The notes under the pieces are model-generated. The model was not told where the DNA came from. It saw nothing but the letters and a program-made list of their open reading frames with translations, and did no database searches. Made by a program: the position numbers and the translations under genes. This document shows positions 29,750 to 49,234 of a stretch of 64,000 nt of DNA, in pieces. The stretch comes from an uncultured Spirochaetales bacterium (GTDB lineage Bacteria > Spirochaetota > Spirochaetia > Sphaerochaetales > Sphaerochaetaceae): positions 1 to 64,000 of the forward strand of contig CASEAG010000016.1 of assembly GCA_949285785.1 (NCBI GenBank). The letters are read 5' to 3'. Every line of letters starts with the position of its first letter. The first letter of the stretch is position 1.

Positions 29750-29779
29750 CACCTGATTCAAAACGGATCAGGTGTTTTT
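29750..29779 (+). terminator. nfu terminator
   Basis: Stem CACCTGAT (29750-29757) with ATCAGGTG (29767-29774), followed by five T. Confidence 0.85.
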
Positions 29780-29794
29780 GTTTCACGTGAAACT
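29779..29794. promoter_or_regulatory. parS site 1
   Basis: TGTTTCACGTGAAACT: 15 of 16 positions match the classical parS consensus, with the last A replaced by T. Its first base is the last T of the nfu terminator. Confidence 0.9.
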
Positions 29795-30096
29795 TCGAAG
29801 TTCATTGTTCATTCATCCATTGACGCTTTCTTTTCATCAAAGAAAAATCGAAAAACAAGAAAAGACAAGTCTCAAAACCTCATTCTGTCTTGGTAAAATA
29901 TACTAATATATTACTAATGTTAGAAATTTATCAGCCCCCAAAGAAAGAGAAAAGTAAAACAAGAGATCAATAAACAAATGAATTGCCAAAGAAAAGAATC
30001 TTATATTTCATTTTTCTATCACAAACTCCATATTAAACGCATAAACCGTATAAGAACAAAAAATGCCAAAACAAATTCAAATCTAAAGTTCATCGA

Positions 30097-30112
30097 TGTT
30101 TCACGTGAAACA
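30097..30112. promoter_or_regulatory. parS site 2
   Basis: Exact 16-bp palindrome TGTTTCACGTGAAACA, 318 bp from site 1. Confidence 0.97.
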
Positions 30113-30263
30113 AATCCACAGAACAGCACCAACCTAAAACAGAAGAACCGATGGAAATTGAAACAAGTAAACTGCAAAAAACATTGACAATTTTGTTAAG
30201 ACAAATGAAACCATGATTATTCTCATTTATTATAATGCAAATTCAAATCAAGATTTCACCAAA

Positions 30264-30296
30264 GAGAGGTTTATTTAATCATCAAACAAACCTCTC
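30264..30296. repeat. Hairpin in the parS island
   Basis: Inverted repeat GAGAGGTTT (30264-30272) and AAACCTCTC (30288-30296) with a 15-nt loop. There is no T tract after it and no gene before it, so its role is unclear. Confidence 0.5.
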
Positions 30297-30331
30297 CAGT
30301 AATTACTCAGAAAATATCTCTATGAGATGAT

Positions 30332-30347
30332 TGTTTCACGTGAAACA
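30332..30347. promoter_or_regulatory. parS site 3
   Basis: Exact TGTTTCACGTGAAACA, 235 bp from site 2. Confidence 0.97.
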
Positions 30348-30477
30348 AAACAACTGATTAAATTAGAATCAGTCTTGCAAAAACAGGAATATGATGAAAC
30401 ACTACTTCTTCCTAATTCATCAATTGATGAGTTGTTTTTCAAATTGGTCGAAGAACTATTTCTTTGTTTTGATTCCA

Positions 30478-30493
30478 TGTTTCACGTGAAACA
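30478..30493. promoter_or_regulatory. parS site 4
   Basis: Exact TGTTTCACGTGAAACA, 146 bp from site 3 and about 290 bp from the gyrA stop. Confidence 0.97.
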
Positions 30494-37002: not shown

Positions 37003-37145
37003 TGTTGAAAACCTGTGCAATACCATCTCAAAACCTGTTCAAAACTCTGTTGAAAAGATGGACTTATGTTGAAAACCTCACGGTCTTTGTCCGGGTTTTA
37101 AACATTTCAACATTCAACACGATCCATATCAACAGGTTTTCAACA
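37003..37145. repeat. DnaA-box-like cluster A (TTTTCAACA)
   Basis: Exact 9-mers TGTTGAAAA at 37003-37011, 37048-37056 and 37067-37075, and TTTTCAACA at 37137-37145. Near-matches TGTTCAAAA (37036-37044), ATTTCAACA (37104-37112) and CATTCAACA (37111-37119). The 9-mer differs from the E. coli box TTATCCACA at two positions; it recurs in cluster B together with TTTTCCACA, which supports its being this organism's box variant. Confidence 0.65.
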
Positions 37146-37208
37146 TGCTTTACATGAATATAAGTGCTTACATGACAGATAGATGCAGAGTTTTAAACAA
37201 TTGAACAG

Positions 37209-37261
37209 CCATTATTACTATTACCATTAGGAGAAAAAAAAAATGATAATAATGATAATGG
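37209..37261. repeat. AT-rich imperfect inverted repeat (candidate unwinding element / dnaN leader hairpin)
   Basis: 20-nt arms at 37209-37228 and 37242-37261 pair at 17 of 20 positions around a 13-nt purine loop. The right arm is a trinucleotide-periodic run of GAT/AAT. It lies 64 bp after the last box of cluster A and about 100 bp before the dnaN ATG. Confidence 0.6.
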
Positions 37262-46279: not shown

Positions 46280-47566
46280 ATGAGCGAATACGTCATCACC
46301 GGTGGAGCCCGGCTGTCCGGAACCGTCAGGATAAGCGGCAACAAGAATGCGGCATTGCCCTGTCTTGCCGCCACACTGCTCAGCGATGAGGCCATCACTC
46401 TGAAGAACGTGCCGATGATACAGGACGTCAATGTGATGGTCCGGCTTCTCGGTGAGCTGGGAAGCGAGGTGCACGGCCTCGCCGACGGCACGTATCACAT
46501 AACGAGCGACGTGCATTTCAGCGGGCTCACGCCTTCGCTGGTGGACTCGGTGCGTGGTTCCATCCTTTTCGCCGGACCACTCCTGGCACGAGGCATCAAG
46601 GTGGTCATTCCGCCTCCGGGAGGCGATGTCATAGGCTTGAGAAGACTGGACACCCATTTCATAGGGCTGTCCGCACTGGGGGTAGACTGTTCGATCGACG
46701 GACATGGCGACCTTGTGCTCGATCCGCCATCCAGGCTACGCGGCGCCGACATCTTCCTTGATGAGGCATCGGTCACGGCGAGCGAGAACTGCATCATGGC
46801 TGCAAGCCTCGCCGACGGAGTCACCACCATATACAATGCGGCATGCGAACCTCACGTCCAGAATCTATGCCATATGCTGGAGGCGATGGGTAGCCGGATC
46901 GATGGAATCGGTTCCAATCGGCTCGTGGTGCATGGAAGGGAAAGCCTTGGGGGCTGTGTCCATACCCTATGCTTCGACTATATGGAGTGCGGTTCGTTCA
47001 TCGGCCTGGCGGCCTGTACACGCAGCCCCCTGCTGCTGACAGGCGTCGATGTCGACCAGCTGAGGCCTCTTGAGCTCGGTTTCAGGAAGCTGGGCATAGT
47101 CTTCGAGAAGAGGGAAGGGGAGCTGTTCATACCGCAGGATCAGAGCCGGGTCATGGCCAGAAGCTACACCGGTGTGACGGACAAGCTGGACGATGCTCCC
47201 TGGCCGGGCTTTCCCGCAGACCTTCTGAGCATAGCCTGTGTCACCGCCACGCAGATGGAAGGCAGCATCCTCGTCCATGAGAAGATGTTCGAGTCGCGCA
47301 TGTTCTTCATAGACTACCTGATTCGCATGGGTGCCGACATAATCCTGTGCGATCCCCACAGGGCCGTCATCCGTGGTGCCACCAGGCTGCACGGACGGCA
47401 GGTCACGAGCCCTGATGTCAGGGCCGGGATGGCCCTGGTTCTGGCGGCACTGTGTGCACAGGGGGAGAGCGTCATAGAGAACATCGAGCAGATTGAACGT
47501 GGATATGAGCACCTGCTGGACAAGCTCATCAACATCGGAGCGCAGATACATCGCAATCAGAGATGA
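46280..47566 (+). CDS. murA: UDP-GlcNAc 1-carboxyvinyltransferase, Asp-type
   Basis: 428 residues from the ATG at 46280. First committed step of murein synthesis, PEP plus UDP-GlcNAc. The EPSP-synthase-like fold starts GGARLSGTVRISGNKNAALP. The active-site loop reads PPPGGDVIGLRRLD, so the residue equivalent to Cys115 is Asp116. MurA with Asp here is active but does not bind fosfomycin covalently, as known for Mycobacterium, Chlamydia and Borrelia. Other conserved parts (ASVTASENCIMAA, DAPWPGFPAD, MFESRMFF) are intact. Its 3' side faces the second DnaA-box cluster. Confidence 0.94.
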   Translation: MSEYVITGGARLSGTVRISGNKNAALPCLAATLLSDEAITLKNVPMIQDVNVMVRLLGELGSEVHGLADGTYHITSDVHFSGLTPSLVDSVRGSILFAGPLLARGIKVVIPPPGGDVIGLRRLDTHFIGLSALGVDCSIDGHGDLVLDPPSRLRGADIFLDEASVTASENCIMAASLADGVTTIYNAACEPHVQNLCHMLEAMGSRIDGIGSNRLVVHGRESLGGCVHTLCFDYMECGSFIGLAACTRSPLLLTGVDVDQLRPLELGFRKLGIVFEKREGELFIPQDQSRVMARSYTGVTDKLDDAPWPGFPADLLSIACVTATQMEGSILVHEKMFESRMFFIDYLIRMGADIILCDPHRAVIRGATRLHGRQVTSPDVRAGMALVLAALCAQGESVIENIEQIERGYEHLLDKLINIGAQIHRNQR

Positions 47567-47586
47567 AATACACCACTAGATATGGC

Positions 47587-47902
47587 TTTTCCACAAGTTT
47601 TCAACAGGAGTGTGGAAAACTGTGTTCCATGTTGGTTCCTGAGGCGGCGGCTGATGGAGGAAGGAGAAAGCCCAACAAATCCAAATCAAGTGTCAACTTG
47701 TTGTGATATAAGAACTTACGTAAGATTGTTTACATGAATTTCGCATAAGAACCTATATAATTTCAGCAGCTATGGAACTTGTGTCACAAGTTGGAACGAC
47801 CTTGTTGAAAAGCAGGTTTTCAACAGGTTTTCAACAAGCGTCGCCCAAGTTGTTCATAACCCAGTAAATCCCTGAAAGCACGTAATTTAGCCTTGTGGAA
47901 AA
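47587..47902. repeat. DnaA-box-like cluster B (TTTTCCACA and TTTTCAACA)
   Basis: TTTTCCACA at 47587-47595, and its reverse complement TGTGGAAAA at 47611-47619 and 47894-47902. TTTTCAACA at 47598-47606, 47817-47825 and 47828-47836, and TGTTGAAAA at 47803-47811. Two copies (47817, 47828) are exact 11-bp tandem repeats. TTTTCCACA differs from the E. coli box by one base. Confidence 0.75.
47776..47792. repeat. 17-bp palindrome in cluster B
   Basis: AACTTGTGTCACAAGTT: perfect 8-bp arms around one central T. Related half-motifs CAACTTG/CAAGTTG recur nearby (about 47694 and 47847). Looks like a dimeric protein binding site. Confidence 0.6.
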
Positions 47903-47937
47903 CTGGAAACCATACAGCCTGACTGTCTAGTGGAATG

Positions 47938-49041
47938 TCAGAAGAAATCGCTCAGGAAGCTGTCGTCCACCAGGTCTTCCAGACTGAGATCGTCATCGGT
48001 TCTGCCGCTTCTGTGAAGGCGGTCGACCGTCCTGTTGAGCTCCCTGATGTTGCCGGGCCATCCGTACTCAAGGAAGGCCTGCACATCCCTTATGTGCTCC
48101 CTGTATCCCCTGAACTCCTCACGGGCCCGGATCAGCGCCTCGATGTCCTCTTTGCGTTCGCAAAGCGGCTTCACATCGATTCTGGCCTCGGCGATTCTCA
48201 TGTAGAAGTCCTTTCTGAGCCTTCCTGATGCGATGAGGTCCTCAACGGGTTCGTTCGTCATCGCGATCACTCTGCATCGCGAGTATCTCAGCCGCGTCTC
48301 TCCCACTCTGCGGAACTCCCCGGTCTCGATGAACCTCAGCAGCTTGGCCTGCGACACGGGACTCAGCGTCTCGATCTCATCGAGGATGAGACTCGAGCCG
48401 TCTGCCTCTTCCACGAAGCCGGCCTTGTCCTCCATCGCCCCTGAGAAGGCGTTCTTCGAGTGTCCGAACATGAAGCTGTCGAACAGGGAACCCTCCAGAA
48501 GTGCGCAGTTGACCACCTGGGCCGCCCTCTGGCAGAAGGCGCTGTGTATACTCTGTGCGACTCTCTCCTTGCCGCTTCCCGTCTTGCCGTAGATCACCAC
48601 GTTGCATCCGCATCTGCCGATGACGGCGATCTTCCTTCGCAGGTCCATCACGGCGGCGGACGTGCCTGTGATCTCCTTCGTGATGTCCATGACATCGGCC
48701 TTCTCGACCTTCCCTCTCGCAATAGCCGGCAGATGCTGCATCATCGCATCCTTTCTGACTATGTTGATCCTGCCGTTGCGTGATGTCGGCAGTTTCGAGT
48801 CGGTGTGACCGGCAAGCAGTATGACGTTCTGCAGCCTGGTATCGTCTTCCCTCTTCAGGAGAAGTGCACCCACTTCGCCGGAAGGATATCCCTCGTCTAT
48901 CAAGAGGGAGTAGTCCTCCGTCTGGGTGTCCAGTGCGGCATCCAGCCTGGACAGGCTTGCGAAGAACCGGCATTCGTCATCGTCGAACAACCAGCCTTTG
49001 CTGGATTTCAGATGTCTGTTCTCGGTGGCGACAAAAAGCAT
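47938..49041 (-). CDS. Sigma-54-activator-type AAA+ protein without DNA-binding domain
   Basis: 367 residues from the ATG at 49041 (AAGGAG 9 nt upstream); the frame continues upstream through a hairpin and is not coding there. Residues 1-~80 look like a degenerate receiver domain without a clear phospho-acceptor Asp (MLFVATENR, YSLLIDEGYPSGEVGALLL, NVILLAGH). Residues ~120-340 are the central AAA+ module: Walker A YGKTGSGKE (152-159), Walker B LILDEIE, and RKDFYMRI. The sigma-54-contacting loop is NAFSGA (197-202) instead of GAFTGA. The protein ends about 32 residues after WPGNIREL, too soon for the usual Fis-type helix-turn-helix. Confidence 0.82.
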   Translation of the reverse strand: MLFVATENRHLKSSKGWLFDDDECRFFASLSRLDAALDTQTEDYSLLIDEGYPSGEVGALLLKREDDTRLQNVILLAGHTDSKLPTSRNGRINIVRKDAMMQHLPAIARGKVEKADVMDITKEITGTSAAVMDLRRKIAVIGRCGCNVVIYGKTGSGKERVAQSIHSAFCQRAAQVVNCALLEGSLFDSFMFGHSKNAFSGAMEDKAGFVEEADGSSLILDEIETLSPVSQAKLLRFIETGEFRRVGETRLRYSRCRVIAMTNEPVEDLIASGRLRKDFYMRIAEARIDVKPLCERKEDIEALIRAREEFRGYREHIRDVQAFLEYGWPGNIRELNRTVDRLHRSGRTDDDLSLEDLVDDSFLSDFF

Positions 49042-49086
49042 ATCGAAGTACTCCTTGGAACGAAAATGTCCGGTGTCAGGGCACAG

Positions 49087-49123
49087 AAAAAGAGAAGGCA
49101 AACGACTTTTTTCTTGCCTTCTC
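49087..49123 (-). terminator. Terminator or attenuator upstream of the AAA+ regulator
   Basis: On the minus strand GAGAAGGCAA/TTGCCTTCTC stem (49092-49101 with 49114-49123) followed by five T (49087-49091). It lies 140 nt after the rsmE stop and 45 nt before the regulator ATG. Confidence 0.8.
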
Positions 49124-49155
49124 CCTCTCAGTCCAGACACCTTCTGGTTTTGCCG

Positions 49156-49161
49156 AGTATA
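49156..49161 (-). promoter_or_regulatory. Possible -10 element of the AAA+ regulator gene
   Basis: TATACT on the minus strand with a weak TTTCAT 17 bp upstream. If used, the leader would contain the hairpin at 49087-49123. Confidence 0.3.
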
Positions 49162-49234
49162 GAACATTTCACCTGTGAATGAAAACCGGTCGGACAGAAA
49201 AACTGCACGGATTCTCCACTCATCACCCATCTTG

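Follow-up and report, generated by a model that had tools for sequence, protein, structure and literature searches.

Clusters of DnaA boxes close to oriC restrain initiation in Bacillus subtilis and Streptomyces, and deletion of these clusters leads to early or excess initiation (PMC4585315, PMC5295017). The datA locus of E. coli, which exhibits a site for a bending protein near its boxes, also restrains initiation (PMC5295017, PMC10380432). At origins that unwind through a BUS, a DnaA box is closely followed by at least three DnaA-trios (PMC8287927); DUEs are found beside box clusters and not inside them, and bipartite origins extend over ~2 kb at most (PMC4285127). The locus considered here, cluster B (positions 47567–47937), is part of a 64-kb window, this being the whole stretch of DNA that was analysed, from a spirochaete that belongs to the same genus as Bullifex porci. 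Like the DBCs of B. subtilis and the Streptomyces cluster, cluster B consists of intergenic DnaA boxes outside but close to oriC, packed at a density beyond chance; a rigid layout of two box pairs ~222–233 bp apart, as seen in cluster B, does not feature in the published descriptions of those clusters (PMC4585315, PMC5295017). With datA it shares boxes that are intergenic and located on the origin-proximal side of the chromosome, and with DARS1 and DARS2 of E. coli it shares a defined set of boxes that includes opposed ones. Tandem boxes and AT-rich DNA are also features of an oriC with a BUS, from which cluster B differs in that its boxes have no adjacent DnaA-trios and the skew minimum lies elsewhere.

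Through an exact-match scan, seven TTTTCMACA boxes were identified within the 371 bp of cluster B, three of them TTTTCCACA and four TTTTCAACA, in the places and on the strands that the first-pass annotation had given. The window holds 11 such boxes in total, with the remaining four found in the dnaA-dnaN gap (cluster A, the probable oriC, 37003–37145; boxes at 37003 (-), 37048 (-), 37067 (-) and 37137 (+)): cluster B is thus richer in exact boxes than this gap, as had been noted earlier. In shuffled versions of the window 0.39 matches are expected, with a maximum of 2 in 100 shuffles, and the whole 2.05-Mb genome (40 contigs) contains 39, of which the other 28 are scattered with none within ~3 kb of another. 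Clusters A and B are hence the only two genome-wide, and the possibility that a scan would reveal similar densities elsewhere has not been borne out. The box density of cluster B is far above chance; an origin by chance or as an AT-rich artefact is ruled out by the shuffles, the genome-wide count and the conservation of the boxes. The distance from cluster B to the end of dnaA is 10.7 kb, and since murA ends at 47566 and the gene of an AAA+ protein (bEBP) ends at 47938 on the opposite strand, the gap that holds it is convergent, in agreement with the earlier description of two genes that both end there. In four congeners (L176, L177, L178, L179) we also observed that dnaA is separated from the oriC boxes by insertions of ~1 kb, which carry ORFs for small secreted or membrane proteins together with TTATGACATAAG-like palindromes.

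The boxes of cluster B are organised around two tandem pairs with an 11-bp period, 230 bp apart. The left pair comprises TTTTCCACA at 47587–47595 (+) and TTTTCAACA at 47598–47606 (+), whilst the right pair comprises two copies of TTTTCAACA at 47817–47825 (+) and 47828–47836 (+). An 11-bp tandem repeat had already been described; it is present, but that description captured only part of the arrangement. Among the 15 congeners with the locus, the boxes at 47587, 47817 and 47828 are retained in 15/15 and the box at 47598 in 13/15. Three further boxes point the other way: TTTTCCACA at 47611–47619 (-), opposed to the left pair, is kept in 12/15 congeners and absent from the Sphaerochaeta loci; TTTTCAACA at 47803–47811 (-) is kept in 7/15; and TTTTCCACA at 47894–47902 (-) is kept in 8/15, with some Sphaerochaeta exhibiting a reverse TTATCCACA ~105 bp past the right pair. 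Cluster B also contains an inverted TTTTCCACA/TGTGGAAAA pair. Between the pairs lies an AT-rich core (47691–47761) with TGTCAACTT (47691–47699) and TATATAAT (47754–47761), both of which recur at equivalent positions throughout the family; 18/57 cores contain TATATAA, compared to 4.9 in shuffles. At the left edge, just outside the left pair, the motif CACTAGATATGG (47574–47585, +) has CACTARATRTRG-like counterparts in most congeners and in several murA-less genomes of another genus. The right edge exhibits TCTAGTGG (47926–47933, -), inverted relative to the left motif, with CTAGTG present in 5/5 examined loci of genus g31 and in some congeners. A conserved inverted repeat, TAAAT-N14-ATTTA, is located past the right pair (47864–47889), and in the form TAANT...ANTTA it occupies this position in three genera. 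Together with the edge motifs CACTAG/CTAGTG, themselves inverted, the TAANT-N14-ANTTA repeat flanks the boxes, and these elements are likely sites for another protein.

Within the window's genus, cluster B is found directly past murA in each of the 15 genomes that have this locus (the window's own and 14 others), and in most of these the tandem pairs are 230–231 bp apart. Mean identity to the window over the congeners is 0.90 in the box columns versus 0.48 in the other columns between the boxes, and a control 9-mer that is not a box is found within one mismatch in only 0.8 of 14 congeners on average; the comparison across related genomes proposed earlier hence reveals that the boxes themselves are conserved. 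The distance from cluster B to dnaA is variable, ranging from 7 kb to ~30 kb and perhaps reaching 97 kb in one genome (G029).

Beyond the genus, Sphaerochaeta and other genera exhibit TTATCCACA boxes in the same location, with tandem pairs 222–223 or 229–233 bp apart, so that the spacing is 222–233 bp across families. The tandem-pair pattern occurs in 77/139 genomes of the order, compared to 0 for a reversed-pattern control among the matches listed, and two pairs spaced by 229–233 bp are present in at least ~40 genomes of the order. Across the class, two same-direction TTATCMACA boxes 209–239 bp apart were found in 103/297 genomes (reversed control, ~6), a count in which element types are mixed. 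Examination of 40 of these class-wide loci placed many near murA and/or the AAA+ gene, 4 directly past jag, 7 within or next to the gyrB-dnaA gap and the remainder with other neighbours, some perhaps by chance; in most, at least one end carries a tandem of a degenerate and a strong box, CACAAGTTATCCACA. The similar paired-box elements within or next to the gyrB-dnaA gap belong to other Spirochaetia families (L229, L230, L233, L235, L237, L246, L250), and in some cases the genome holds another copy at a different location. The pair spacings group near 212, 222 and 230–233 bp. Strict helical phasing was rejected, with a Rayleigh test fitting periods of 8.5–10.5 alike and not singling out 10.5 bp; because the test is not specific to 10.5 bp and the genera are not independent, helical phasing is only suggestive.

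The identity of the ligand is indicated by the manner in which the box letters change. At clusters A and B they shift jointly, being TTTTCMACA in the window's genus (g1) and mostly TTATCCACA in Sphaerochaeta (g3), and genus g31 exhibits TTTTCCACA at cluster B. In domain IV of DnaA the motif PRQ is altered to ARN in the window's genus and to ARH in g31 (L031, L212, L213, L214), and these are the two genera in which the DnaA boxes begin with TTT instead of TTA. The residues that change flank the arginine of this motif, which is the box-reading, minor-groove residue (R399 in E. coli). Because the boxes at both loci change in step with domain IV of DnaA, it is very probable that DnaA binds cluster B.

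Neither of the neighbouring genes appears to be needed for the maintenance of cluster B. In genus g31, no close murA was found by homologue search (E <= 1e-80; many genomes of G049–G096); here cluster B adjoins the AAA+ gene, and in two loci pfkB starts beside it. At two other loci (L014/L015) the AAA+ gene is absent and cluster B lies between murA and rsmE, whilst in G004 the cluster keeps its position between AAA+ and murA but has the opposite orientation, with 7/7 boxes intact, although this is one metagenome assembly in which misassembly is possible. Since cluster B is kept without murA, kept without the AAA+ gene and inverted in G004, it seems to serve neither neighbour, and we argue that it acts as DNA and not as the terminator or operator of one gene. 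The retention of cluster B and its other neighbours in g31 (G049–G096) without a close murA raises in its own right the possibility that peptidoglycan synthesis genes have been lost there. The AAA+ gene itself (47938–49230) encodes a protein of the sigma-54-activator type in which no DNA-binding HTH was detected, and sigma-54 is encoded elsewhere in the genome. We had considered this protein as an unusual partner of cluster B and rejected the idea, as cluster B also exists without the gene; with sigma-54 present, it is best seen as an ordinary protein of the enhancer-binding type that has no HTH.

We propose, with a probability of roughly 55%, that cluster B is a stand-alone DnaA-binding cis element near oriC that restrains re-initiation by sequestering or inactivating DnaA, in a manner comparable to datA, the DBCs of B. 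subtilis or the Streptomyces cluster. The two tandem pairs, with their 11-bp spacing and ~22 helical turns between them, would nucleate two short DnaA oligomers that face the same way; bending of the AT-rich core, perhaps with HU, would then allow the two DnaA complexes to meet, and the joined complexes could serve as a high-avidity sink or as a site of ATP hydrolysis. Cluster B would be replicated very soon after oriC, and because it doubles just after oriC fires, free DnaA would drop when re-initiation must be prevented. The sequence itself shows where cluster B lies, how it is built, that it is conserved and independent of the genes around it, that it co-varies with DnaA and that it is not the skew-defined origin; we infer that DnaA binds it in the cell, that a loop forms and that the effect is to restrain and not to stimulate. 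The fixed spacing of the two pairs suggests a loop or paired oligomers. Against a passive sink, the rigid spacing, the conserved core, the flanking inverted repeat and the edge motifs exceed what a sink would need, and they point to a specific complex or to further proteins. In the window's genome (96% complete) no separate Hda was found (E <= 1e-10), with DnaA itself as the sole match and below the cut-off, and one gene of the HU/IHF family was found, which is of the HU family. As datA needs IHF, its mechanism is unlikely to apply in detail, and restraint free of IHF and Hda is plausible at cluster B. The first-pass annotation had compared the locus to timing elements of the datA, DARS or DBC type, and this part of its reading is well supported: the element is conserved in sequence and architecture, co-varies with DnaA and does not depend on its neighbours. 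The accompanying suggestion of a true oriC is not supported. Somewhat short of even odds, we would extend the proposal to a class of DnaA control specific to Spirochaetia: two tandem pairs ~21–22 turns apart, an AT-rich core and flanking inverted motifs would form a looped timing complex without IHF or Hda, with separate copies whose location depends on the family, be it close to murA, past jag or between gyrB and dnaA.

The effect of cluster B may instead be a stimulating one, as a distant helper of oriC or as a DARS-like site. In the first case, which we regard as unlikely, a DnaA complex on cluster B would loop to the dnaA-dnaN gap and promote unwinding there, as in a bipartite origin that is split over a long distance. 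The location of cluster B within ~7–30 kb of dnaA in most genomes with both on one contig fits this idea, as does the similar paired-box element that other families exhibit in the gyrB-dnaA gap beside the origin; however, known bipartite origins extend only up to ~2 kb (PMC4285127), compared to 10.7 kb here and 7–30 kb in relatives, a separation that exceeds that of the bipartite origins to which the locus had been likened earlier. The several-fold variation in distance and the inversion in G004 without loss of boxes also speak against it. Slightly less likely still is the conversion of ADP-DnaA to ATP-DnaA at a DARS-like site. Opposed boxes characterise DARS (PMC10380432), and the window's genus indeed exhibits an opposed box 4 bp past the left pair (47598+/47611-), but Sphaerochaeta lacks this box and has the tandem pairs as its sole constant part. 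DARS relies on head-to-head boxes I/II and box III, with IHF/Fis at DARS2, whereas the constant part of cluster B is two same-direction pairs.

That DnaA at cluster B mainly controls the transcription of a nearby gene, or of an unannotated RNA, is improbable. Conserved TGTCAA and TATATAA could be parts of a promoter (TTGACA when read leftwards) and the start of pfkB adjoins cluster B in g31, but the window copy has no sigma-70 match, Rfam gave no match in the region of cluster B, and the element persists with varying neighbours and when inverted in place (G004). A leftward core promoter (TTGACA...TATAAT), seen in some genera, was also considered and is absent from the window copy. Less probable still is that the boxes serve murA and the AAA+ gene as a terminator or as a hairpin at the 3' end. 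The convergent gap, the one inverted box pair, an RNA fold somewhat more stable than in shuffles (z-score -2.6) and one weak terminator-like match (47607–47628) would be compatible with such a role; the fold score is, however, expected from the opposed boxes and the inverted repeats at the edges, and was therefore not taken as a sign of RNA. An intrinsic terminator is defined by a GC-rich hairpin that leads into a U-run and is conserved together with the gene that it ends. This arrangement was not found in cluster B: no U-run is present and few Ts follow the weak match. Furthermore, the constant part consists of tandem pairs and not of a hairpin, the reverse boxes that would form one are missing in Sphaerochaeta, and the element outlives both the AAA+ gene and murA, in whose absence it can sit upstream of pfkB. 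The earlier caution that a hairpin might help to end murA transcription thus finds no support as an account of the main role of the locus.

The remaining alternative, that cluster B is itself oriC or an additional active origin, can be addressed through GC skew. In the window's contig, the skew minimum in 4-kb bins lies at dnaA. Because skew in the window alone is too noisy and the turn in G017 is ~5 kb off (between clusters A and B, ~5 kb from the dnaA-dnaN gap and nearer to dnaA), we relied upon genomes with a wider distance between the clusters: in the complete genome G097 (2,227,296 bp) the cumulative minimum is at dnaA (0.1 kb) and the curve is rising through cluster B (30.4 kb), and in G061 the minimum is at dnaA (267 kb) and not at cluster B (292 kb). 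Cluster B is not the skew-defined origin, and the question raised earlier as to which cluster sits at the minimum is answered in favour of dnaA. A DnaA box followed within ~20 bp by a DnaA-trio-like (YTW)n is present in 0/33 loci of cluster B, whereas most of the dnaA-dnaN gaps in the genomes concerned have one; in the window, the degenerate box TTTTAAACA followed by the trio-like TTATTACTATTA (37191–37223, +) forms a probable unwinding site by the definition in PMC8287927. In an AT-rich intergenic stretch at 29779–30493, parS-like sequences occur four times, as three exact copies of TGTTTCACGTGAAACA and one mismatched copy; this is a probable ParB centromere ~5 kb from dnaA. Although cluster B exceeds the dnaA-dnaN gap in its number of boxes and combines tandem boxes with an AT-rich core, we consider its use as an origin highly improbable, given that in G097 and G061 it is embedded in one replichore at 25–30 kb from dnaA, that trios accompany the other locus, that its AT-rich part is between the box groups, unlike the placement of DUEs (PMC4285127), and that the three exact parS sites (30.1–30.5 kb) put the centromere on the dnaA side.

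The control of replication timing is poorly known outside E. coli, Bacillus and Caulobacter. In a limited search of the open-access literature we found no paper on Sphaerochaeta origins and DnaA and, judged by title and abstract, no description of an extra-oriC DnaA element in spirochaetes. For methods of origin finding, cluster B provides a warning that the densest cluster of boxes may not be oriC. For the spirochaetes themselves, an element of fixed spacing has been kept across several families despite the turnover of its neighbours, which makes the question of whether it acts as a sink or as a switch directly testable.
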